A stretch of 26,461 nucleotides of DNA, taken from the IMG/VR virus record IMGVR_UViG_3300010885_023593, positions 1 to 26,461 of that record; one strand, given 5' to 3'. Each line of letters opens with the position of its first letter. Positions within the stretch are counted from its first letter, which is position 1. The stretch is from a virus. Below, one piece after another: positions 2,442 to 25,520 of the stretch. Made by a program: the position numbers and the translations under genes. Below the pieces are notes generated by a model. That model was not told where the DNA came from. It saw only the letters and a program-made list of their open reading frames with translations, and made no database searches.

Positions 2442-3227
2442 ATGGAAAGAAATTTTGAATTATTAAAGGATGTATTATCAGTCCCAACAAAAACGTATCA
2501 AGAACATTTAATGGTTGAATTTATAAGTAATTGGTTGACTGAAAATAATATTCCACACTACATTGATCAATTTAACAATGTTTACGCAACAAAACAAACT
2601 GATGGTGATATTTCCCATTTTCCTTGTGTTGTTGCTCACACCGATACTGTTCATAATATTGATACAATAAACGTTGTTGAGGAAATGTTACCAAATGCTC
2701 AGAAAGAAATAAAATTAGCACTAAAAGCATATAACGATGAAGGAAGCCCAACTGGTATTGGTGGTGATGATAAATGTGGTGTATATGGTTGTCTTGAATT
2801 ACTAAAAGAATTACCTAATCTAAAAGCTGCGTTTTTTGTGGCCGAAGAAACCGGATGTAAAGGATCATCTAATGCCGATCCAAAATTCTTTAAAAACATC
2901 GGATATGTAATCCAATTTGACGCACCAGAAAATAATATGATTTCCGAGTTTTTGATGAATAAACCAATGTTTAAAAGAGATTCAGAATTTTTTAATGTTG
3001 GTGGTCGTTTAATTACAGAACACTTTCCAGGCGATACCAAATACCATAGACACCCTTACACGGACATCTTTCCGTTAAACCAAAATTTTGGTCTATCTTG
3101 TTTTAACATCTCAATTGGTTATTACAACTACCACACAAAAAATGAATATGTTGTTGTTGAGGACACATATAATGGTATAAAAGTTGGTAAGTTAATGATA
3201 GAGGAATTAGGTTACACTAAACATTAA
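2442..3227 (+). CDS. M20-family zinc metallopeptidase (peptidase T-like)
   Basis: Predicted cytoplasmic two-zinc aminopeptidase/dipeptidase-type enzyme. The M20 residues appear in order: AHTDTVH with metal ligand H66 and neighbouring D68; GIGGDDKCG with bridging D109; AEETGCKGS with general base E135 and ligand E136; QFDAPE with D160; YHTKNE with final ligand H231. No signal peptide is present. At 261 residues it is much shorter than a usual M20 enzyme (about 350-450). There is little room between E136 and H231 for the normal dimerisation (lid) domain, so it is probably a minimal catalytic-domain form. It lies between the tmRNA and the clp-like gene and converges on the latter across a shared terminator. 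Peptidases of this class trim short peptides, which would suit a role downstream of a Clp machine, but that link is inferred. An M28/M42-type peptidase is a less likely reading. Confidence 0.85.
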   Translation: MERNFELLKDVLSVPTKTYQEHLMVEFISNWLTENNIPHYIDQFNNVYATKQTDGDISHFPCVVAHTDTVHNIDTINVVEEMLPNAQKEIKLALKAYNDEGSPTGIGGDDKCGVYGCLELLKELPNLKAAFFVAEETGCKGSSNADPKFFKNIGYVIQFDAPENNMISEFLMNKPMFKRDSEFFNVGGRLITEHFPGDTKYHRHPYTDIFPLNQNFGLSCFNISIGYYNYHTKNEYVVVEDTYNGIKVGKLMIEELGYTKH

Positions 3228-3228
3228 A

Positions 3229-3257
3229 AAAAAGGAGGGTTTTTAATCCTCCTTTTT
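3229..3257. terminator. Bidirectional hairpin terminator between convergent peptidase and clp-like genes
   Basis: Perfect 10-bp stem AAAAAGGAGG/CCTCCTTTTT with a 9-nt loop, flanked by A/T runs so it works on both strands. It overlaps the last codons and stop of the minus-strand clp-like gene (stop at 3243-3245). Confidence 0.8.
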
Positions 3258-5306
3258 CTTTCTTCCTTTTTTCTTTGGTTCTAAAACAACCCTTTCTTCT
3301 AATTCTATGACTTGTTCATCACCTTCTGTTTTAACAAATAACATATATTGTTTATCTTCAACAACTTCATTTGTTAATATTTTTTCTGAAATAAGATCTT
3401 CTATTTTATCCTGGATTGCTCGTTTAATTGGTCTTGCTCCAAACAATTCGTCAAACCCAACCTTTGCAATTTTTTCAATTACCGATTGTTCATATGTGAA
3501 ATTATATTTCATTGATGTTAATCTACCAATTAATTTATCAATTTCAAGTTTAACAATCTTATCAACATGTTCTTTTTTCAAGGAATTAAAGATTACAATA
3601 TCGTCAATTCTATTTAAAAATTCTGGAGCAAAAAACTTACTCAATTCTTTTTTAAGAACGTCTCTCTTATATTCTTCCTGGACCGCATCACTATTGTTGT
3701 TTGTTTTAAACCCAACACCACTTCCAAAATCTTGAACTTTTCTAACACCAATATTTGATGTCATAATAATTAAACAATTTTTAAAATTGATCTTTCTACC
3801 TAACCCATCTGTCATATGTCCATCATCTAACATTTGAAGTAAAGTTCCGAAAATCTCTTTGTTTGCTTTCTCAACCTCATCAAATAAAATTACAGAATAT
3901 GGTTTATTTTTTACTTGTTCCGTTAATTGGCCACCTTCTTCGTGACCAACATATCCCGGAGGAGAACCTATTAGTCTTGATATGGTGTGTTTTTCCTGAT
4001 ATTCGGACATATCAACACGAATCAAACTATCCTCACTACCAAAAATTTCTTTTGCAAGTTTCTTAGCTAAAAATGTTTTACCAACACCAGTAGATCCAAG
4101 GAAAATAAATGAACCAATTGGTCTATTTGGATCCTTAATACCAACTCTATTTCTTCTAATTGACTTTGATATTTTTTTAACAGCTTCTTCTTGACCAATA
4201 ACATTAGCATTTAGAGTATCTTCTAAACTAACAAGTGAGTTTTTTTCATCCACATTAATTTTACTTACTGGTATCTTTGTCATGTTTGAAACAACCTCGT
4301 AAATTAACTCTTCTGGAATACCTCTTTTACTTGTCTTTAATTCCTCCTCAAATTTATTTTTTTCCTCTTCAAGGTTATTTAAAATATTTTTTTCACGGTC
4401 TCTTAATTCGGCCGCCATTTCATATTTTTGTTTTTTAATAACATCAGCTTTTTCTTTTTTGATATCTTGAGCTTCCTGTTTTAATTTTTCAATATGTTCC
4501 GGAAGTTTAATATCAATTTGCATCCTTGACCCAACCTCATCTAAAATATCAAACGCTTTATCTGGAAACTCTCTATCTGTAATATAACGATCTGCTAACT
4601 CAACACATAACCAAAGAGCTTCGTCGGTGTAATTAACCTTATGATGATCTTCATATTTTTCCTTACTTAATTTAAGAATCTCAAATGTTTCTTGTTTTGT
4701 TGATGGATCCACAATAATTTTTTGAAATCTCCTTTCTAATGCACCATCTTTTTCAAAGTGTTTTCTATATTCATCAAGTGTTGTAGCACCGATACATTGA
4801 ATTTCACCTCTTGATAAAGCTGGTTTGAATATGTTTGACGCGTCAAGTGATCCGGAACTATTACCAGCACCAACCATTGTATGAATTTCATCAATAAAAA
4901 TTATAATATTTGGATTATTTTGTAACTCCTCAATTATAACTTTCATTCTTTCTTCAAATTGTCCTCTATATTTTGTCCCAGCAACAATTGAGTTGATGTC
5001 TAATGATACAATTCTTTTATCTGATAAATTTTTAGGACATTCACCACTATGAATCATCATCGCAAGACCCTCAACGATTGCTGTTTTTCCAGCACCTGGT
5101 TCACCAATAATGATTGGGTTATTTTTTTTTCTTCTTGATAGGACTTGAGCAATTCTTAAAATTTCTTTTTCCCTACCAATTACAGGATCTAATTTTCCCA
5201 ATTGAGCTTGTTTTATTAAATCTTTACTGAAGTTATCTAAAACAGGTGTTCCACCATCAGTTTTCTTTTTGTTTTTGTCGTTGTCATCTACAAATTCTAT
5301 TGCCAT
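3243..5306 (-). CDS. ClpC-like AAA+ unfoldase lacking the N-domain
   Basis: A 687-residue protein with two AAA+ modules, predicted to unfold proteins with ATP and feed them to ClpP. D1 has Walker A GEPGAGKT (68-75), pore loop GTKYRG (110-115) and Walker B IDE (138-140). A middle domain (about 270-325) carries a UVR-type motif, KYEMAAELRD (294-303). D2 has Walker A GSTGVGKT (404-411), pore loop GYVG (451-454), Walker B FDE (475-477), sensor-type TSN and FLNRID. VGF at 531-533 sits where ClpC carries its ClpP-docking loop, which separates it from ClpB disaggregases. Bacterial ClpC is about 810-850 residues because of an N-terminal adaptor/substrate domain; here the AAA+ core begins after only ~25 residues, so that domain is absent. 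The C-terminus is Lys-rich. No clpP is seen, so host ClpP is the likely partner. A UVR protein is encoded divergently 159 bp away, and a TATATTTA element lies 20 bp upstream of the start. ClpA/ClpE-like naming is possible. Confidence 0.93.
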   Translation of the reverse strand: MAIEFVDDNDKNKKKTDGGTPVLDNFSKDLIKQAQLGKLDPVIGREKEILRIAQVLSRRKKNNPIIIGEPGAGKTAIVEGLAMMIHSGECPKNLSDKRIVSLDINSIVAGTKYRGQFEERMKVIIEELQNNPNIIIFIDEIHTMVGAGNSSGSLDASNIFKPALSRGEIQCIGATTLDEYRKHFEKDGALERRFQKIIVDPSTKQETFEILKLSKEKYEDHHKVNYTDEALWLCVELADRYITDREFPDKAFDILDEVGSRMQIDIKLPEHIEKLKQEAQDIKKEKADVIKKQKYEMAAELRDREKNILNNLEEEKNKFEEELKTSKRGIPEELIYEVVSNMTKIPVSKINVDEKNSLVSLEDTLNANVIGQEEAVKKISKSIRRNRVGIKDPNRPIGSFIFLGSTGVGKTFLAKKLAKEIFGSEDSLIRVDMSEYQEKHTISRLIGSPPGYVGHEEGGQLTEQVKNKPYSVILFDEVEKANKEIFGTLLQMLDDGHMTDGLGRKINFKNCLIIMTSNIGVRKVQDFGSGVGFKTNNNSDAVQEEYKRDVLKKELSKFFAPEFLNRIDDIVIFNSLKKEHVDKIVKLEIDKLIGRLTSMKYNFTYEQSVIEKIAKVGFDELFGARPIKRAIQDKIEDLISEKILTNEVVEDKQYMLFVKTEGDEQVIELEERVVLEPKKKGRKKKED

Positions 5307-6174: not shown

Positions 6175-6906
6175 ATGGATAATGCACTTATAAAAAGTTT
6201 TGAGCCACAAAAAAAACTAAATTCCAAAATCTGGGAAAAATTTGGTAATTCTGTAAGAATGGAACCTGTGGTTAGAGCAAGGTTATTAGAAATAGCAAAT
6301 GAGTTTATAGATTTTTTAGATATAGAAATTATGGTGTCCGACATTATTTTAACAGGATCACTAGCAAATTATAATTGGTCAAAATATTCTGATTTTGATT
6401 TACACATTGTTGCCGATTTTAGTCAATACTCAGAAAAACAAAAAGAGTTATATGAAAAATTATTTAATTTAAAAAAATTAATTTTTAATCAAAAACAAAA
6501 TATAACAATATTCAATTACGAGGTTGAACTATATGTTCAAAATGAAACCGAAACACATTTTAGTAGTGGTGTTTATTCTGTCTTGTTTGACGAATGGGCA
6601 AACAAACCAAAAAAGGAGGATGTGAATATTGATAAAAATCTTTTAAAAGAAAAATCAAAACAATGGATGAATATAATTGATGGTGTAATTGAAAACATTG
6701 AGGATGAAGACATTGAAACATCAAAAAAATTATTAGACAAATATAAAGACAAGATTAAAAAATTTAGAACCTGTGGTTTAGAAACAGGTGGTGAATATTC
6801 AATTGAAAACCTTGTATTTAAGATACTAAGAAGGAATGGATATATTGAAAAATTAATGACTGCTTACTCAAAAATTTTAGACGATAGATTATCTATGGAA
6901 CAATAA
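6175..6906 (+). CDS. Predicted nucleotidyltransferase (Pol-beta superfamily fold)
   Basis: A 243-residue protein with the minimal nucleotidyltransferase signature: LTGSLANYNW (G61-S62) followed by SDFDLH with metal-binding D73 and D75, and a third carboxylate plausibly E118 (or E116) in the strand NYEVELYV. Enzymes of this fold transfer a nucleotide to RNA, protein or a small molecule; the substrate cannot be told here. The C-terminal ~100 residues are helical and Lys/Glu-rich, without a recognisable HEPN partner motif. No gene that looks like an antitoxin follows, so a toxin-antitoxin reading is not favoured. It lies downstream of the KTSC gene and is followed by a 76-bp AT-rich gap. The fold call is fairly confident; the function is open. 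Confidence 0.75.
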   Translation: MDNALIKSFEPQKKLNSKIWEKFGNSVRMEPVVRARLLEIANEFIDFLDIEIMVSDIILTGSLANYNWSKYSDFDLHIVADFSQYSEKQKELYEKLFNLKKLIFNQKQNITIFNYEVELYVQNETETHFSSGVYSVLFDEWANKPKKEDVNIDKNLLKEKSKQWMNIIDGVIENIEDEDIETSKKLLDKYKDKIKKFRTCGLETGGEYSIENLVFKILRRNGYIEKLMTAYSKILDDRLSMEQ

Positions 6907-6982: not shown

Positions 6983-8422
6983 ATGGGAGGATTAAGACCT
7001 ATTGGAAGTGAAAAACTTAGCGGAATGGATAAAATCCGTAGAATAATGGAAATTGCAACATATGATGGTAATAAAGGTTCTAACCTAAATGAAGATAAAG
7101 AAAATGTATTTTCTGTTAAATTAGCAGATAATATTGACTATGTCATTGTGAAAGAAAAACAAGGATATATTATTAAAGAGTCATTTAATGGTGAAATTAA
7201 TTATTTAGAAAATATACAAGAAAGAAAATATTATAAATCATATTCTCAAGCATTAAAAAGATTAAATCTGGTTGCAAAAGAGAAAAATACTCTTTATGAG
7301 AACAAAAAAGGGACGGCGTTGTTTGAACAGTCTGAAAAAAAAAAGTATTATCTAGACTTGGGTGATAAAAAAAAAGAGGAAACTAAATCAGAAACAACAC
7401 CTGCTCCGGCAACACCTGTAACACCTGCTCCGGCAACACCTGTAACACCTCCTCCAGCGGCACCTCTTGAGGAACAAGGTGATCCTACGTTAGATCCTAA
7501 CGCAGCGGCACCGGCTGTAGCACCACCATTGCCTGGAGCTGAAACAGCACCACCATTACCTGTAACCGAACCAATTCCAGATGCTGGACTAGAAGGTGGT
7601 GAAGGAATGGAACCAGAAGAAGATATGGGTATGGAACCAGAAGAAGGTGGTGAAGATAAAAAAGAAGAAATTACATTTAAACTTATCCAAAAACTTACCG
7701 GGAAATTAGCACAAAAATTAAGATCTTACGGCGAAGATAAAGAAATGAGTTCTGATAACATTAAGTATGTTATAAACTCAATAATATCAGCAATTGATGT
7801 TGAGGCTTTGGACGAAGACGATATTGAAGAGATTATTAATAGATTGGAAGGTGAAGAAGAAGAGGGTGAGGAAGGAATGGAAGATGAAATGGATATGGAA
7901 TCTGAAGAAGAACCGATGGGTGGTATGGGTGCAGAACCAGGATTAGAAGGACCTCCACCAGCGCCAGAAGGAGCTCCAGTTCCGGCACCAGGTGAAATGG
8001 CAGAAGGATTTAAAAATTTAAGTGATGCTTTTGTAAATAAATTTAAAGGTGCTTATAGTTCTGTGTTGGCCGATAAAATGATGGAAGGTCAAAGAAGAGA
8101 CAGAAGAAGAAAAAAACGTAGCTACTCTGAAAATATCGGTGAATCTAATGTTGATAGAATTATCTCAAATTATTTTAATATAAAAGAAGATGAATATATT
8201 ATAAAAGAAGAAGAAACAAGAAAAGAAATTGAATTTATAAAAAGAAAAAATACATCAGAAATTAAAAGACTTTCAGAATCTTTAAGACAAGAAAGAATGG
8301 CTTTAAAATTTATTGAGAAATTCCCTAAAGCAAAACTAATTGGTTCTACAACAAAGAAAAATTTAGTATTTAAACAAGGATTAACTGAAAGAAAAATAAC
8401 ACCAGAAGGACAGGTTCTATGA
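6983..8422 (+). CDS. Proline-rich/acidic low-complexity protein, probably virion or head-core associated
   Basis: A 479-residue protein with no recognised family. The N-terminal ~120 residues are basic and ordered-looking, starting with a Lys/Arg/Ile segment, DKIRRIMEIA (16-25). A Pro/Ala/Thr-rich linker follows, with the repeat TPAPATPV, then Glu/Gly/Met-rich acidic tracts, a helical segment (about 230-290), another acidic and Pro-rich stretch, and a basic C-terminus with RRDRRRKKR. Alternating acidic linkers and basic ends are typical of phage scaffold or core proteins, and I-M-E at 21-23 loosely resembles a gp21 processing site, but this is weak. The stop overlaps the next start as ATGA (8419-8422), indicating translational coupling. 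Function unknown. Confidence 0.8.
   Translation: MGGLRPIGSEKLSGMDKIRRIMEIATYDGNKGSNLNEDKENVFSVKLADNIDYVIVKEKQGYIIKESFNGEINYLENIQERKYYKSYSQALKRLNLVAKEKNTLYENKKGTALFEQSEKKKYYLDLGDKKKEETKSETTPAPATPVTPAPATPVTPPPAAPLEEQGDPTLDPNAAAPAVAPPLPGAETAPPLPVTEPIPDAGLEGGEGMEPEEDMGMEPEEGGEDKKEEITFKLIQKLTGKLAQKLRSYGEDKEMSSDNIKYVINSIISAIDVEALDEDDIEEIINRLEGEEEEGEEGMEDEMDMESEEEPMGGMGAEPGLEGPPPAPEGAPVPAPGEMAEGFKNLSDAFVNKFKGAYSSVLADKMMEGQRRDRRRKKRSYSENIGESNVDRIISNYFNIKEDEYIIKEEETRKEIEFIKRKNTSEIKRLSESLRQERMALKFIEKFPKAKLIGSTTKKNLVFKQGLTERKITPEGQVL
7397..7453 (+). repeat. In-frame 24-bp tandem repeat (Pro/Ala/Thr linker)
   Basis: Two exact 24-bp copies (7397-7420 and 7421-7444) plus a partial third encode repeated TPAPATPV-type linker sequence. 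Slippage or recombination could vary linker length between relatives. Confidence 0.8.
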
Positions 8423-8829
8423 GTTATTTAATTTATATAAATGGGATGGGACCAAACTATAAAGGTGATAATATCTATGAATTTATATTCTCGGATACGA
8501 CTGAAGATGTTTGGGGTGAAAATTGGGAATCAAAACCAGCAAATGGTTATCCATCACCTCCGGATGTTGAATATATTAAAAAAGTAGGAACACTAAAAAA
8601 TGAAAAAATAACATTAGATCTGGTTCAAGGATCTGATGTTTTTTCTGTTTTGGACTCTATGGATGGTGTGATTGCAATGGGTTGGGAAAGAGAGTGTGAT
8701 GAGGTTGATTTCTCAATAACAAAAAGGTTGGTATTCAAGTTTGGTGATACCGAACAAGACGTAAAAGATAAACTATACGAACGAGATATCGTTTTAGAAT
8801 TTGAAAAAAAAGTAGTATATGAAAACTAA
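8419..8829 (+). CDS. Uncharacterised small protein, coupled to its neighbours
   Basis: A 136-residue soluble acidic protein without recognised motif. It begins with a beta-rich segment (SYLIYINGMGP), has a Trp-rich patch around residues 31-37 and looks alpha/beta globular. The start overlaps the previous stop as ATGA, and its own last 11 bp overlap the next gene, whose ATG is at 8819. The three genes are therefore very probably translated from one mRNA and could act in stoichiometric amounts. The position upstream of the terminase suggests a virion or assembly role; nothing in the sequence proves it. Confidence 0.8.
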   Translation: MSYLIYINGMGPNYKGDNIYEFIFSDTTEDVWGENWESKPANGYPSPPDVEYIKKVGTLKNEKITLDLVQGSDVFSVLDSMDGVIAMGWERECDEVDFSITKRLVFKFGDTEQDVKDKLYERDIVLEFEKKVVYEN

Positions 8830-9832
8830 TAAATATGTAAAAATCCTTTTGGATAATGGTTTAAATGTAAAAACAATATCTAAATTAAATGAGTCACAAA
8901 TGAGAGTGCTTGTTGAAAGATTTAAAAAACTTGAATCTAAAGAACAAGTGACACCAATAACACAACCAGCAAAAACCGGTTTTAAAATACAAGGATCTGG
9001 TAATTTACCTAAAACTGATAAAGGTTATTCCTTAAGTAAAAACCCTGACGGTTCTATGGATGCTTTCCCAATGACTGAAGATGATACATTAAATATTGTT
9101 ACTGATCCTGCCGCAACAGCAGATGGAATGGAAACAACAGAAGGAGAAACAAACGAAAGATTTAAATCTACAGCACAACAAAGATTTTTTTGGAGAAAGT
9201 GTGATAAAAGCGAAGACAAGAAAAGTAAGTGGTGTCAATTAGCAAATGAATTTCAAAAAGACACTAAGGATAAGAATTTACCAAAAAAATTACACCCAGA
9301 AAAAAGTGTAAAAGTAAAAACTGAAGGTTATGAAAAATACCTTGAGGATAGTATTGTTGAGATGGTTGATAGATATATTAACCCTGCAATGACAAAATCC
9401 CAACTTATAAACACTTTAAATGAAAAAGTTAATAAGTCAGAATCTTTCATGTTGAAAAAACCAAAAAGAAACTCTATATTTTCACAAGACGAAGGAAAAG
9501 AAATGAAAACAATGAAAAGACCAATCGGTAAAATGTTCTCTTTGGGTGAAGACACAAAAGAAAAAGAAAGAACAAAAACAAGAGAAAAAGAAAAAGATAA
9601 GGATAGAAAAAATCCTTACGAACCAAAACATAAACCAGCACCAAAAGCTAGAAAAGAGTTTAAGGAACAAGAGATCGCACCTTCAAAACCAGGTACAAAA
9701 GAAAGAACAAAAGAAAAAGATCCAGGTAAGAAAAACCCTTTCCAACCAAAACACAATCCAGCACCAAAAGCAGGAAAAACATCTTTACCAAACTTTTTGA
9801 AGTGGGATAAACTTAGAGTTAATTTAAAATAA
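8819..9832 (+). CDS. Lys-rich protein with duplicated C-terminal PKHxPAPKA segment
   Basis: A 337-residue, strongly basic protein. The N-terminus is helical (NKYVKILLDNGLNVK) and contains L-N-E at 23-25. Residues about 115-150 form a small motif, TAQQRFFWRKCDK...KWCQLANEF, with two Cys, resembling small AQQR-type segments common in phage proteins. The C-terminal ~90 residues are almost wholly charged and carry a duplicated unit, KNPYEPKHKPAPKA and KNPFQPKHNPAPKA, each preceded by Lys/Glu/Arg/Thr-rich repeats. This composition suits an internal, DNA-neutralising virion protein or a disordered assembly factor. The first 11 bp overlap the preceding gene. No enzyme motif is seen; function unknown. 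Confidence 0.82.
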   Translation: MKTNKYVKILLDNGLNVKTISKLNESQMRVLVERFKKLESKEQVTPITQPAKTGFKIQGSGNLPKTDKGYSLSKNPDGSMDAFPMTEDDTLNIVTDPAATADGMETTEGETNERFKSTAQQRFFWRKCDKSEDKKSKWCQLANEFQKDTKDKNLPKKLHPEKSVKVKTEGYEKYLEDSIVEMVDRYINPAMTKSQLINTLNEKVNKSESFMLKKPKRNSIFSQDEGKEMKTMKRPIGKMFSLGEDTKEKERTKTREKEKDKDRKNPYEPKHKPAPKARKEFKEQEIAPSKPGTKERTKEKDPGKKNPFQPKHNPAPKAGKTSLPNFLKWDKLRVNLK

Positions 9833-11168: not shown

Positions 11169-11176
11169 ATATTTAT
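11169..11176 (+). promoter_or_regulatory. ATATTTAT element before the terminase gene
   Basis: Recurrent octamer directly after a terminator, ending 14 nt before the ATG at 11191, the same spacing as at 15065 and 16541. Confidence 0.5.
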
Positions 11177-19283: not shown

Positions 19284-21146
19284 ATGGGAGCATTATTAGA
19301 ATCAGGTCTTGTAGGTAACATTGGGTTAAAACACCTTAAAGTTATCAAAGAAGATACAATTAACAAATGGGACAGATTAGGGTTCCTTGAAGGTCTTAAA
19401 GGCCACCTAAAAGAGAACGTAGCACAATTATACGAAAACCAAGCTTCTCACTTGATTAACGAAGCAACTTCAGAAGGTTCTAACGGAGCATTTGAAACTG
19501 TTGTTTTCCCTATCGTAAGAAGAGTTTTCTCTAAATTGTTAGCTAACGATATCGTTTCTGTACAAGCAATGAATTTACCTATTGGTAAATTGTTCTACTT
19601 TGTACCTCGTATCCAAGGATACCAACAAACTAACCCAACTGATGTTGCTACTCACTATGCACCTGTTGGTTCACCAACAAATCCAGGTACTGGTAATGTT
19701 GGTGCTGGTTATCCACCAAATGCTAACGCATATGCTAAAAATCTTTATGATTTATTTTATGAAGGTTCAGAAGCTGGTTTAGATCCTCCAGGATTATTTG
19801 ATTACTCAAAAGGAAAATGGTCTGCTGTTACAGCATCTACTAGCATGGTAATTTGGGATAATGGTAATTTAACAACTTCTGGCGCTGCTGCAGCTTACCA
19901 AAATGGTAACAGAAGAAAAATTATCGTTAAAATGTGTAACTTTAGAACTTTAGGTGTTGGTGCTGGTAAACTAATCGGACCTGATGGTAACGAAGTTGAT
20001 ACAGAATCTTTCCTTTCTGATTTAAGAATTTTTGCAACATCTAATATTACAACAACTGCTGATACTTGTAATGTTGTTTGGGATGCAGCTAATGGAGTTG
20101 GTAAACCATTATTGTTCAGAGTTGTTACTCAACAATATGGTAAAGGTATCGTTGATTACAATCAAGGACAACCTACACAAACAAGCTTCTTTAACGGTCC
20201 TAACTACGGAAATGGTGGTTCTTACTACGATATCTGTGACGCAACAGGATGTATCTATTTAGAAGTTGACCTTTCTTGTCCAGCGTGTTTTGAGTGTGGT
20301 GACGAATCTTTAGATGGTTACACAGGATCTACATTAGGAGCGTTGAGTGGTACTGAATTAATGGTTATGTATAGAACTTACGAAAATCTTGAGTTCGCTG
20401 AAGAAATTGGTGAGGTATCTTTTGATCTTCAATCAGTAACAGTTTCTGTAACTGAAAGAAAATTAAGAGCACAATGGTCTCCAGAACTTGCACAAGACGT
20501 TGCTGCATTCCATAATATTGATGCTGAAGCTGAATTAACAGCTTTATTGTCAGAACAAGTTGCTGCTGAAATTGATAGAGAAATCTTGAGAGACTTAAGA
20601 AAAGGTGCTGCTTGGAATTTAAGATGGGATTACAACGGATGGAGAAGATTGAGTTTAACAACTTCTTATACTCAAAAAGACTGGAACCAAACTTTGATCA
20701 CAGCAATTAACCAATTGTCAGCACAAATCCACAAGTCTACACTTAGAGGTGGTGCTAACTGGATCATCGTATCTTCTGAGGTTTCTGCAATCTTTGATGA
20801 TTTAGAATACTTCCACGTATCTAACGCGTCTCCTGAGCAAGATCAATACAACATGGGTATTGAAAGAGTTGGTACACTTTCTGGTCGTTACCAAGTGTAT
20901 AGAGATCCTTACTTCCCACCAAATCAAATTTTGATTGGTCACAAAGGAACATCTCTACTTGACACTGGTTACATTTACGCACCGTATGTACCTCTTCAAT
21001 TAACACCTACAATGTATAACCCATTCAACTTTACACCTATCAAAGGTATAATGACGAGATATGCTAAGAAAATGGTTAACAACCGTTTCTATGGTAGAAT
21101 CACAGTTGATGGAGTTAGAACATTTGACTTGAGAGAATTAAGATAA
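19284..21146 (+). CDS. Major capsid protein (T4 gp23-like)
   Basis: Main shell protein, 620 residues (T4 gp23 is 521). The N-terminal propeptide matches T4 style: NKWDRLGFLEG, YENQ, then HLINEATSEG with a predicted cut after E60 (T4 cuts after E65 in FLTEAEIGG). Next come FPIVRRVFSKLLANDIVSVQ and AMNLPIGKLFYF, corresponding to the T4 segments RRAIPNLIA...VQPMNSPTG. The HK97-type core resumes with KLRAQWSPELAQDVAAFH and DAEAELTALL. Between (about 115-355) lies an enlarged insertion with a Cys-rich end (DICDATGC, CPACFECGDE). Codons ending in C appear more frequent than in neighbouring genes, as expected for high expression. It is followed by a strong terminator. Confidence 0.97.
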   Translation: MGALLESGLVGNIGLKHLKVIKEDTINKWDRLGFLEGLKGHLKENVAQLYENQASHLINEATSEGSNGAFETVVFPIVRRVFSKLLANDIVSVQAMNLPIGKLFYFVPRIQGYQQTNPTDVATHYAPVGSPTNPGTGNVGAGYPPNANAYAKNLYDLFYEGSEAGLDPPGLFDYSKGKWSAVTASTSMVIWDNGNLTTSGAAAAYQNGNRRKIIVKMCNFRTLGVGAGKLIGPDGNEVDTESFLSDLRIFATSNITTTADTCNVVWDAANGVGKPLLFRVVTQQYGKGIVDYNQGQPTQTSFFNGPNYGNGGSYYDICDATGCIYLEVDLSCPACFECGDESLDGYTGSTLGALSGTELMVMYRTYENLEFAEEIGEVSFDLQSVTVSVTERKLRAQWSPELAQDVAAFHNIDAEAELTALLSEQVAAEIDREILRDLRKGAAWNLRWDYNGWRRLSLTTSYTQKDWNQTLITAINQLSAQIHKSTLRGGANWIIVSSEVSAIFDDLEYFHVSNASPEQDQYNMGIERVGTLSGRYQVYRDPYFPPNQILIGHKGTSLLDTGYIYAPYVPLQLTPTMYNPFNFTPIKGIMTRYAKKMVNNRFYGRITVDGVRTFDLRELR

Positions 21147-21167: not shown

Positions 21168-21197
21168 AAAGGAGACAAGAAATTGTCTCCTTTTTTT
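21168..21197 (+). terminator. Strong rho-independent terminator after the capsid gene
   Basis: Perfect 11-bp stem AAAGGAGACAA/TTGTCTCCTTT with a GAAA tetraloop and a seven-base T run. Confidence 0.92.
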
Positions 21198-21295
21198 ATG
21201 AATAATAATTTAATAACACTAAATGTTCATTTGACACAAAATTTACTTTATAATTAAACTTCTTTAAACTATTTATTAAGTAAAAATATTTAATT

Positions 21296-23725
21296 ATGAA
21301 AAGTTTTTTAATCTTACTATTTACCCTAATTTCTTTTTTGGGCTTTACACAAGTTAGTTCTTATACATTCGGAACATCAACTGGTACTTACACACCAATA
21401 ACTGGTGGTGCTAACTATGATAACTTTACAAGTTGGACAAACACAAATTTTTTAGATGATAATAACTCAACTGCATTAGAATCAATTGGGTTTAATTTTG
21501 TTTATAATGGGACAACCTATACTCAATTTGCCGTTAATACCAATGGATTTATAACATTAGGTGCTTTACCTACTAATAGTTATTTACCACTATCAACAGG
21601 TACGTCAAATAATGTTATTTCTGCAATGGGAGCCGATTTAATAGGTCGTGGTTCATTTTTAGCAAATAGAACTTCTGGGAGTGCCGTAATCACAATAACC
21701 GGTGGTGATATATCTTTAATATCAGTTGGTGACAAAGTAAGTGGTACTGGTATTCCTGCGGGTGCTACGGTATTATCTAAAACAGCAACAACTGTCATTA
21801 TTTCAGCAAGCGCATCAAGTAATGGCACAGGGTTTCATTTTAGATTTAGTAGATCAACATTCGGTATTAGATTTCAAACAATAGGTACCGCACCTAATAG
21901 AACATTAGTTGTTCAGTGGACGGGTTGGCAAAGATATACCACATCAGGAGCGTTTGGTGAATTGTATAACTTTCAAATAAGATTAAACGAAACAACTAAC
22001 GCAATAAATATTGTTTATAACATACAAGGTCCAACAAGTGCTACCGCAACAACTTTTCAAATTGGTTTAAGAGGAAGTGTAAACACCAATTTTAATAACA
22101 GAACAACAACAACAAATTGGTCATCAACAACCGCAGGGACATTAAATAGCTCAACTGTAACACTTTCAAGTACAGTTAAACCAACAGCCGGATTAACATA
22201 TACTTGGACACCCCCATCTTGTGCGGCACCATCATCATTATTAGTAACTTACACATCACCAACATCCGCTAATTTATCCTGGTCAGCATCACCATCATTA
22301 CCAACAAATGGATATGAATGGGAAATAAGAACTTCTGGATTAGGGGGTAGTGGAGCAACTGGCTTAACGGCTAGTGGTAGTGTTGGTGCGGGAGTTACAT
22401 CTGTTTCTACCTCATCATTAACTCAAAATACGACCTATATATTATATGTTAGAAGTAATTGTGGGGGAACGTATAGTTCCTGGAATGCGTCCGCTAGCTC
22501 AACTTCACCAACACCTCCACCAGCAAATGACTATTGTTCTGGAGTAGTGGATGTTCCTTGTGCTACTAGTTCATTAGCTGGTACAACGGTGGGAACAATA
22601 GTTGAGACAGCACCATTTTCTTTATCATCTAATTATGGGGTTTGGTATACATTTGTAGGCGACGGACAACAAACAACAATTACATCAACAGCCACATTTG
22701 ATCATAGTTTATTGTTTATGTCTGGATCTTGTAGTGGATTAAGTTATATAACTAACATTGATAATTCATTCACAACTGAAACATATACATTTACCACAAC
22801 AGTAGGAGTTCAGTATTATATTTATATTGCTCATTATTTAACAAGTAGTACTTCAACTGGAACTTTTACAATATCCAGAACTTGTACAGCACCTCCTGTA
22901 CCACCAATTAATGATAATCCATCTGGAGCTATTACATTAACGATAGGTAACACCGTTACATATGTAACATATACCAATGTAAACGCAACTAACACAACAA
23001 CTGAATCAACACCAAGTTGTGCTGCGTATGTTGGTGAAGATGTTTGGTTTAAAGTTACACTTCCACAATATGTGACATCATTGGATTTTGACACACAAAC
23101 CGGTGTGATAACTGATGCGGGTATGGCAATTTATAGAGGTGCGTTAGGTTCGCTAGTTGAAATACAATGTGATGATGATAGTTCACCAAACGGTGCAATG
23201 TCTTTTATATCAAGAACTGATTTTTTTGAATACGAAACAATATACATTAGAATATGGGAATATAATGGTGGGACAACCGGTACTTTTGGTATATCTGTTA
23301 CAACACCACAACCGCTACCAGTTGAGTTAAGTCAGTTTGAGGGAATTAAATATACAATGTTTAATTTAATTAATTGGACAACTGAATCAGAAAACAACTC
23401 AAGTTATTTTGATTTAGAATCAAGTATTGATGGTGAGAACTGGAAAGTTATTACAACAAGTCCGGCTGCTGGTAATAGTAATGAAAAAATTAATTATTCA
23501 TATATTGATAATAATTTAAGTGAAATTGTTTATTATAGATTACAACAATTTGATATTGACGGAAAATATGAAACATTTGGACCAATTGTTATTACTAGAG
23601 ATGTTAAAAATAAACAAATTATCGGTTATATTAATTTATTAGGACAAAAAGTTGACCCAAAATATACTACAGGTGTAATAATTGAGGTATATGAAGATGG
23701 GACAATGATAAAAAAAATTAGATGA
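21296..23725 (+). CDS. Large secreted surface protein with FN3 domain and type IX secretion C-terminal region
   Basis: An 809-residue Thr/Ser/Gly-rich protein. Residues 1-19 are a signal peptide (KSFLILLFTLISFLGFTQ, flavobacterial style). The region 20-300 contains YTFGTSTGTYTPI, IGFNFVYNGTTYTQF and VNTNGFITLG, common in secreted Bacteroidota proteins. An inserted piece (about 125-177) reads VSGTGIPAGATVLS, as in phage structural proteins. About 305-400 is a fibronectin type III-like domain. Two PPC-like beta modules begin with NDYCSG (~410) and NDNPSG (~539). From ~674, LPVELSQFEG, INWTTESENNSSYF, YYRLQQFDIDGKYE and YINLLGQKV match the region preceding and within type A T9SS sorting domains, and the end, GTMIKKIR, fits too, although the final domain looks short. 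It was probably acquired from a host and displayed on the infected cell, though a virion fibre is possible. The stop overlaps the next start (ATGA). Confidence 0.88.
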   Translation: MKSFLILLFTLISFLGFTQVSSYTFGTSTGTYTPITGGANYDNFTSWTNTNFLDDNNSTALESIGFNFVYNGTTYTQFAVNTNGFITLGALPTNSYLPLSTGTSNNVISAMGADLIGRGSFLANRTSGSAVITITGGDISLISVGDKVSGTGIPAGATVLSKTATTVIISASASSNGTGFHFRFSRSTFGIRFQTIGTAPNRTLVVQWTGWQRYTTSGAFGELYNFQIRLNETTNAINIVYNIQGPTSATATTFQIGLRGSVNTNFNNRTTTTNWSSTTAGTLNSSTVTLSSTVKPTAGLTYTWTPPSCAAPSSLLVTYTSPTSANLSWSASPSLPTNGYEWEIRTSGLGGSGATGLTASGSVGAGVTSVSTSSLTQNTTYILYVRSNCGGTYSSWNASASSTSPTPPPANDYCSGVVDVPCATSSLAGTTVGTIVETAPFSLSSNYGVWYTFVGDGQQTTITSTATFDHSLLFMSGSCSGLSYITNIDNSFTTETYTFTTTVGVQYYIYIAHYLTSSTSTGTFTISRTCTAPPVPPINDNPSGAITLTIGNTVTYVTYTNVNATNTTTESTPSCAAYVGEDVWFKVTLPQYVTSLDFDTQTGVITDAGMAIYRGALGSLVEIQCDDDSSPNGAMSFISRTDFFEYETIYIRIWEYNGGTTGTFGISVTTPQPLPVELSQFEGIKYTMFNLINWTTESENNSSYFDLESSIDGENWKVITTSPAAGNSNEKINYSYIDNNLSEIVYYRLQQFDIDGKYETFGPIVITRDVKNKQIIGYINLLGQKVDPKYTTGVIIEVYEDGTMIKKIR

Positions 23726-24201
23726 TAAAAAATTTTGATTTTATAAGAAGGTTGTTTGTTATAGTTCTTGCTATACTACAACCTTTTATAATTTATTTTT
23801 ATTGTGGTGAATTACAATCATTATCTCAATCATGGACAACAGATCTACAATTTTTATTTATTTTAACAAATGCACTTGTAAGTTACTTTTTTTTTGATTT
23901 AGATGAATGGAAAATACCATCAATGTTTCTATTATTATTAACAGCATTTTCAGTTCCGGATCATTTTTGGTTACATAATATTTTTGCAATACTTTTTTTT
24001 CTATCTTGTTTGGTGCCATTATACTTGGCAAAAAGATTTAAATATTATTTCTATATCTATTTAATATCAATTTTTTTCTGGGTTTTTAAAGGGTTTTTTT
24101 GGATGGAGACTTGGGGGATATTAACATTATGTGTATATCACTTACATTTAATGTTATATAAAGTACACTTACTGTCTAGACATAGTTCTAATAGCCTTTG
24201 A
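23722..24201 (+). CDS. Polytopic membrane protein coupled to the secreted protein gene
   Basis: A 159-residue, very hydrophobic protein with about five or six membrane segments (roughly 10-28, 42-60, 66-80, 84-102, 106-125, 128-145), many Phe/Leu/Ile and a basic N-terminus (IKNFDFIRR). No family is recognised. The start overlaps the previous stop as ATGA, so translation is coupled to the T9SS-type protein, and the two may act together at the envelope. Possible roles include help in export or anchoring, superinfection exclusion, or holin-like activity, but none is supported by a motif. The gene's last 33 bp overlap the convergent gene ending at 24169. Base composition is even more AT-rich and T-heavy, as expected for membrane proteins. 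Confidence 0.78.
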   Translation: MIKNFDFIRRLFVIVLAILQPFIIYFYCGELQSLSQSWTTDLQFLFILTNALVSYFFFDLDEWKIPSMFLLLLTAFSVPDHFWLHNIFAILFFLSCLVPLYLAKRFKYYFYIYLISIFFWVFKGFFWMETWGILTLCVYHLHLMLYKVHLLSRHSSNSL

Positions 24202-24410: not shown

Positions 24411-25520
24411 ATGATAGACGATAAATTAATAAAGAAAATAATAAGAGAGGCAACATCTGACGGTGGTGGTAGAGGTGCATATGTTGGACCTTTACAACCT
24501 GGGATTCGTTTGTTTAAAAAAAATCAAATGACACCTTTTACAATTCCTGTTTCAAAATATGATAGTCCATTATTATCTTATGACAGTTATGACGGTAAAA
24601 TGGATGAAACAAAAAAACAAATAAAAAAAATTGAAACAAAAGCAAAAAAAAATTCTATCTTCTTAAAGAATCATCCTGGGTTAACAATAAGTGATGAAGA
24701 TGGTAATGTTATAAATCAAACCCCAGGGAAAAAATTAAAATTTGTTCCAATTAAAGAAAATATGAAAATAGATCAGATAATCAAAAAAATTTTATTAGAA
24801 GCTACGTCTGAAAAAGCAACTAGAGGTTCTTATGTTTCACCACTATTACCTGGGTATAGAGAGTTTCAAAAAAATCAAAATGCACCATTTACTGAATTTC
24901 TTACACAATGGGATGATGCCATGTTAGATCATGATAGTATGGATGGTAAAATGTCAACTAAAAAAAGTGAGATAAAAAAGAGAGAAAAAAGAGCAGAAAA
25001 GATTGCTAGATATATAAAAAATAACCCTGACGCTTTTACGTTTGCTGACGATGGTGGTGTTATGAATGGTATACCAGGTAAAAATTTAGACGCAAAACCA
25101 CTTAAAAATTTTGACCCAAAAAAAACTGTAACAAAACTTGGTGAGTGGGTTGAAATTACTCAAGATGTCATTGTTGAGGATCTTGCTGTATGGTTTGGGA
25201 AAAAGAAAAAACCAAAAGGTTCTTCACAACCAAAAGGACCATGGGTTGATATATGTAGAAAAGTTGACGGTAAACATCCACCTTGTGGTAGAAAGGACGC
25301 TGATAGTGGGTCTTATCCTAAATGTAGGGCCGCTGGTGTTGCGGGTAAAATGTCTGACTCACAAAAAAGATCGGCTTGTCAACAAAAAAGAAAAGCGGAA
25401 AAAAATGATTCTCAATCTGGTAAAGGACAGAAACCGGTTATGACTTCATATAAAACAAAAAAGGAGTCTGTAGACTCCATAGTTTTTAATATCTTATCAG
25501 AGTTTAGAAATTCTATCTAA
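24411..25520 (+). CDS. Probable virion protein with duplicated module and Cys-rich C-terminal domain
   Basis: A 369-residue basic protein made of two copies of a ~115-residue module. Copy A (1-117) starts DKLIKKIIREATSD, copy B (118-235) starts MKIDQIIKKILLEATSE. Both then share RG-x-YV-x-PL-x-PG, KNQ-x-x-PFT, a D-x-x-DGKM segment, a Lys-rich helix, NPD/HPG and PGK-x-L. Both leaders contain gp21-type sites, I-R-E13|A14 and L-L-E130|A131. Met118 falls exactly at the start of copy B, as if two adjacent duplicated genes had fused. After a linker comes a Lys/Cys domain (about 265-330) with WVDICRK, PPCGRK, YPKCRAAG and KMSDSQKRSACQQKRK, of a type I associate with phage structural proteins. The end, VDSIVFNILSEFRNSI, is helical. 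It is predicted to be packaged and cut by the phage protease. Confidence 0.82.
   Translation: MIDDKLIKKIIREATSDGGGRGAYVGPLQPGIRLFKKNQMTPFTIPVSKYDSPLLSYDSYDGKMDETKKQIKKIETKAKKNSIFLKNHPGLTISDEDGNVINQTPGKKLKFVPIKENMKIDQIIKKILLEATSEKATRGSYVSPLLPGYREFQKNQNAPFTEFLTQWDDAMLDHDSMDGKMSTKKSEIKKREKRAEKIARYIKNNPDAFTFADDGGVMNGIPGKNLDAKPLKNFDPKKTVTKLGEWVEITQDVIVEDLAVWFGKKKKPKGSSQPKGPWVDICRKVDGKHPPCGRKDADSGSYPKCRAAGVAGKMSDSQKRSACQQKRKAEKNDSQSGKGQKPVMTSYKTKKESVDSIVFNILSEFRNSI

Follow-up and report, generated by a model that had tools for sequence, protein, structure and literature searches.

The window, a contig of 26,461 bases that makes up the whole virus record IMGVR_UViG_3300010885_023593, carries behind its T4-type capsid gene a phage gene for a protein of 809 amino acids with the predicted features of a Sec-exported surface protein of the type IX secretion system (T9SS). 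The sequence-only reading had proposed such a protein, and the proposal is supported, as a prediction, by a signal peptide, by homology to a cellular domain (“LPVEL”) and by a short C-terminal tail. The whole is best explained by a T9SS cargo with which infected cells come to display a variable binding protein, an explanation that we think reasonably likely. Export of the cargo through Sec and T9SS is the firmer element and, judged from sequence, appears quite probable, while a role in surface exclusion or adhesion would be a tentative proposal.

Modules of the cargo protein

The open reading frame list gives 809 amino acids at 21296 to 23725 (plus strand, as are the protein features below), in agreement with the sequence-only reading, and homologues were found at 37 IMG/VR loci, with full-length relatives reaching 90% identity. 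Residues 1 to 19 (MKSFLILLFTLISFLGFTQ; 21296 to 21352) form a Sec signal peptide, modelled as a helix over residues 2 to 15, which bears out the flavobacterial signal peptide claimed earlier; a similar start was kept in 75 of 78 related viral proteins under a simple hydropathy rule, and the other three are apparently cut short or late-starting. The N-terminal all-beta passenger domain (residues 20 to 308; 21353 to 22219) was delimited from the alignment and a low-confidence model, and a search for a family match to these residues found none. The FN3 domain that had been reported was recovered at residues 311 to 399 (22226 to 22492), where PF00041 matched slightly under the Pfam gathering score (E = 7e-5) and a PDB FN3 match was found. 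A GBD_T9SS_assoc-like domain at residues 539 to 628 (22910 to 23179) is weak in the window protein (PF23759, E = 0.12), and the same T9SS-associated model is over its cut-off in the relatives L012, L018 and L117. The PPC-like module, also claimed earlier, is not matched by Pfam in the window protein; what survives of it is a weak match in the relative L136 (E = 0.02) together with the related GBD module. Overall, the protein is acidic and rich in Ser, Thr, Asn and Gly, a composition frequent among extracellular flavobacterial proteins.

The full-length structure model was poor (pLDDT 52) and therefore unsuited to a fold search, so the C-terminal module alone was searched. Its model (pLDDT 91.7) comprises a seven-strand domain followed by a three-strand tail, the tail strands lying at positions 102 to 106, 121 to 126 and 131 to 135 of 136. 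Foldseek returned generic FN3 and other beta folds for this module, none with an E-value of ≤0.001. Assignment to a known phage family or a known T9SS-sorted family was considered and rejected, with TIGR04183, Pfam and PHROG all giving no match.

The C-terminal tail in phages and cells

Residues 674 to 767 (23315 to 23596) constitute an FN3-like domain whose homologue in cellular T9SS cargo precedes the CTD (hhalign E = 8e-50; model pLDDT 91.7), this LPVEL domain being present in at least 504 confirmed cellular Bacteroidota stretches. In the cellular proteins it is followed by a canonical CTD, mostly of YPNP type, whereas the phage protein has in that place a short C-terminal sorting tail (residues 773 to 809; 23612 to 23722) with three predicted strands, delimited from alignments, the model and cellular copies. 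The phage tail spans about 36 residues of the form K-x-IVKYINLLGQEV-x(5-7)-G-x-IFEVYEDGT-x-KKIIR, in which G, G, D and G are invariant.

Against export through T9SS stands the finding that no curated T9SS sorting model matches this tail and that its similarity to long CTDs is weak. TIGR04183 and PF18962 had no C-terminal match in the window protein or its homologues, and the type B CTD model TIGR04131 gave no NCBIfam match at E ≤ 1 (window protein) or E ≤ 10 (homologues). Comparison of the tail with canonical long CTDs was not significant (hhalign probability 5.6%, p = 0.007), and the best hmmsearch value against cellular long-CTD proteins was E = 0.09. The sequence-only reading had placed a T9SS-type C-terminal region at residues 674 to 809 and had named the lack of a match to T9SS domains there as a ground for giving it up; these residues have no TIGR04183 match, and the claim thus fails if the curated model was meant, while it holds in the form of the LPVEL homology and the short sorting tail. 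The putative sorting element is a shorter tail outside the curated models, behaving as a short C-terminal sorting tail. From sequence and model, the phage tail would work like a short CTD, and membership of that class is not claimed as proven because the Tyr of motif D is absent and the resemblance to long CTDs falls short of significance.

The tail model had 13 matches in one cellular genome of the Flavobacteriales (G001). The 12 of these proteins that were fetched end 1 to 7 residues past the match. Their passengers are unrelated, ranging over beta-lactamase-like, multicopper oxidase, leucine-rich-repeat and other types, and a signal peptide is present in nearly all of the tail proteins whose start is intact. 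The same genome encodes SprA and has at least 150 TIGR04183 matches. A tail shared by many otherwise unrelated exported proteins within a single cell is the pattern of a sorting signal. Within the order of G001, the tail was found in 105 of 199 genomes (E ≤ 1e-3), the top-scoring matches including LPVEL-type proteins that bear the same tail. In a sample of the phylum it was found in 1 of 395 genomes, G001 alone (E ≤ 1e-5), which suggests that the model seldom fires by chance, although the thresholds of the two counts differ and the samples seem to overlap little. Our own reading is that the tail is probably restricted to the order of G001. It is possible, as part of a tentative joint reading, that the tail represents a class of short T9SS signals in Flavobacteriales cells that has gone unrecognised. 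If this is correct, current models miss a short sorting signal, and Flavobacteriales secretomes, and phage cargo generally, are probably under-counted.

The thirteenth match in G001 (L039) was considered as a possible prophage copy and rejected as such, its neighbours looking cellular; we take these to be a FolK-type protein and a GldD-like lipoprotein. It is also worth noting that the short tail class of G001 (L218 to L229) and its order occurs in a KELIKIVDLMGRET...PLIYIYSDGTTEKV form as well, likewise outside NCBIfam.

The slot behind the capsid gene

Upstream, the slot occupied by the cargo gene is bounded by the T4-type major capsid gene (19284 to 21146, plus strand; Pfam Gp23 E = 3e-73, PHROG 138), which belongs to a head module that also encodes large terminase, portal and prohead protease; locus comparison placed the other boundary at a conserved gene (24411 to 25520, plus strand). 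The product of the latter has an internal duplication (IIKKI..EATS...G.YV.PL.PG, near residues 8 and 125). The C-terminal module is encoded in 209 viral stretches, with a signal peptide in nearly all of the inspected proteins that have an intact start. At 77 viral loci retrieved through this module, the capsid gene lies upstream on the same strand in 51 and a homologue of the downstream boundary gene is present in 55. Among annotated phage genomes, no isolate was found with the gene, and the only matches, to the C-terminal module, came from four uncultured records (462 to 642 kb); the tail is also present in an uncultured phage of 634 kb.

In many loci, the gap between capsid and cargo genes is 149 to 170 bases, while others hold extra, mostly endonuclease-like genes, examples being L116:3573-4265, L139:2205-2879 and L133:1564-3267. 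By eye, we presume these to be HNH endonucleases; no Pfam match to HNH was obtained, and a match to MTES_1575 REase-like was weak. Possibly, these genes drive passenger exchange. Exchange itself is evident when the window is compared with its relative L117: their DNA is 96% identical up to base 21412, slightly beyond the signal peptide, then unrelated through the passenger, bar one patch of 74 bases, until 23316, from which point (the LPVEL codons) it is 92% identical. Across three pairs whose capsid proteins are 97 to 100% identical (L132/L139, L164/L165 and window/L117), passengers share 32 to 35% identity and tails 55 to 91%. Single-linkage clustering of passengers was tried and discarded in favour of pairwise identity, since modules shared between passengers chained most of them into a single group. 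The passengers are built of modules of the GEVED, CUB, FN3, GBD or PKD-like kinds, and those that were scanned yielded no catalytic domain. Passengers are exchanged by recombination between constant ends, which fits a part under strong ecological selection.

Between the capsid and cargo genes stands a hairpin terminator (21168 to 21199, plus strand) with an 11-bp stem and a T-run. A simple terminator scan counted no more candidates in the region than expected by chance; nevertheless, most relatives have this hairpin in the corresponding position, with compensatory pairs (GGAGACAA/TTGTCTCC, GGAGACGA/TCGTCTCC and GGAGATAA/TTATCTCC). The earlier placement of the gene behind a terminator, which proves to be conserved, and in a head region is borne out. 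The start codon is preceded, 26 nt upstream, by the element TATTTAT (21270 to 21276, plus strand), common to head genes. Of 25 genes, 13 have it ≤60 bases upstream, against 1.4 expected under a first-order model of those regions, and the genes so preceded include those for terminase, protease, capsid and cargo. We regard it as a candidate late-promoter element of the phage group. There are 19 plus-strand copies, most directly preceding a gene (examples at 11170, 15066, 16542, 17578, 19238 and 21270). Read on the other strand, TATTTATA becomes TATAAATA, the T4 late box. The description of the gene as accessory suits its variable passenger; it does not suit the slot, signal peptide and tail, which are conserved throughout the phage group, or the TATTTAT element, which the cargo gene has in common with the TerL, protease and capsid genes.

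Further genes were observed around the slot and elsewhere in these phages. In L136, the interval between capsid and cargo genes holds a signal-peptide protein of gliding-adhesin type with SprB repeats (7199-7885, minus strand; PF13573, 4e-10), whose end matches positions 23 to 71 of the TIGR04183 profile under the cut-off (E = 0.0024); on its sequence, this protein would be a bridge to known T9SS signals. Signal-peptide subtilases (Peptidase_S8, E about 1e-29) that end in short T9SS-like tails occupy the same interval in L127 (1979-3430) and L136 (5525-6985, minus strand). The window itself encodes a ClpB/ClpA-type AAA+ ATPase of 687 amino acids beside the head genes on the opposite strand (3243-5306, minus strand), an M20/M28-type peptidase-like protein (2442-3227) and a nucleotidyltransferase-like protein (6175-6906), and open reading frames near the cargo gene of L190 are presumably ClpS-like and GroEL-like. 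In the cultured, T4-like Flavobacterium phage immuto (L239), an Ig-like repeat protein with no obvious signal peptide is encoded shortly after the capsid gene (7955-9595), and similar repeats occur within the exported passenger of L018.

Proposed function and relation to known systems

In the mechanism that we propose, the Sec signal peptide would take the cargo to the periplasm, and the LPVEL domain with the short CTD would direct it across the outer membrane via SprA/PorV, beyond which it may be anchored or released. The exposed passenger would consist of beta-sandwich binding modules (FN3 and GBD-like here; CUB, GEVED or PKD in sister phages). Its most likely function would be to coat or mask the surface of the infected cell late in infection, the late timing being itself a prediction, with the coat blocking competing phages or changing adhesion. 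This reading of export is based on the signal peptide, the LPVEL homology, the place of the tail and its copies in G001, and also on the match between a three-strand tail after a seven-strand domain and the short-CTD architecture of Prevotella intermedia, with which cleavage and anchoring are supported (PMC11969387). More broadly, and tentatively, the T4-type group might keep a slot for late T9SS-displayed coat proteins with swapped passengers and a coupled membrane protein, serving surface exclusion.

An exported protein could also act away from the envelope, as a released factor for binding or adhesion, clumping cells or debris together or keeping progeny phage near hosts. Passengers made of binding modules (CUB, GEVED, FN3, GBD) would suit such a factor, and the exported subtilases near the slot in sister phages suggest that the slot may house secretome genes in general; however, the position and late-type element suit a function on the infected cell equally well, and sequence does not separate release from anchoring. 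We consider release unlikely.

Directly 3' of the cargo gene, and joined to its stop codon by an ATGA overlap, lies a gene for a small membrane protein of 159 amino acids with about four hydrophobic segments (23722 to 24201, plus strand). A homologue directly follows the cargo gene in 29 of the 77 loci, with the ATGA overlap in 17, and its absence elsewhere makes it an associate rather than an obligate part; this translationally coupled protein may assist the cargo. This arrangement, and a tail that matches no T9SS model, would also suit export by Sec only, in which case the cargo would stay in the periplasm or in the inner membrane with the membrane protein as its working partner, and the tail would be an ordinary structural element. 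However, the same tail on many unrelated exported proteins of G001 has the pattern of a sorting signal, and the LPVEL domain stands before T9SS sorting domains in cells, making export by Sec only improbable. A virion protein, whether a Hoc-like capsid decoration or a fibre, is equally improbable: the cargo gene does adjoin the capsid gene, and the Ig-like repeat protein of immuto without an obvious signal peptide is encoded shortly downstream of one, but nearly all relatives have a cleavable signal peptide and T4-type heads form in the cytoplasm. Moreover, the protein ends in the manner of a T9SS cargo, and other phages (L138 and L186) have the cargo and membrane-protein genes with no capsid gene recognised nearby.

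Were display of the cargo on infected cells correct, a large T4-like phage group of environmental flavobacteria would remake the outer surface of its hosts through their own T9SS and vary that surface by cassette exchange, providing a concrete candidate for superinfection exclusion in Bacteroidota.

Type A T9SS cargo (TIGR04183/PF18962) resembles the phage protein in its signal peptide, beta-sandwich surface modules, LPVEL domain and terminal sorting element, whereas the phage tail has about 36 rather than about 72 residues, lacks the YPNP start and is phage-encoded. Nearer in length are the short CTDs of P. intermedia, which have 40 to 55 residues, three predicted strands and motifs B, D and E, and whose cleavage and glycosylation were established by mass spectrometry; that paper describes P. 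intermedia as the one species on record with CTDs of both lengths (PMC11969387). In HBP35, the final 22 residues are enough for secretion of GFP (PMC10202324). The phage tail shares with them a short signal, three predicted strands, a B-like motif (LLGQEV) with glycine, a G-containing D-like motif and a basic, E-like C-terminus. It belongs to phages of a different bacterial order and, at about 36 residues, is somewhat shorter than the 40 to 55 that were measured from the cleavage site; motif D of the GxY/GxN type was absent, phage tails keeping Gly and replacing Tyr/Asn with a hydrophobic residue (G-x-[IFLV]). T4 Hoc-type decoration likewise has Ig/FN3-like modules near the capsid gene, but the protein described here differs in having a signal peptide and a C-terminus of T9SS type.

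Phage use of T9SS had been called unusual; two precedents have been published. In crAss-like phages, proteins with BACON and T9SS sorting domains are similarly T9SS-sorted and encoded near the head genes of Bacteroidota phages, although the phage group, passenger and sorting domains differ (PMC6949934). The Cryophage study of 2020 described phage-borne T9SS cargo, highly variable among nearly identical phages, and made the same functional proposal (PMC7468147). That 76-kb phage encodes an endoglucanase, a GH39 protein and a PA14 protein that bear type A sorting domains, whereas the phages described here are of a T4-type (gp23) group and have binding modules in place of enzymes, a short tail, a fixed slot and a coupled membrane gene. 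Judged against the open-licence literature, the new elements are the T4-type group, its fixed slot and coupled membrane gene, the scale, and a short tail outside the curated models that is common to phages and cells.
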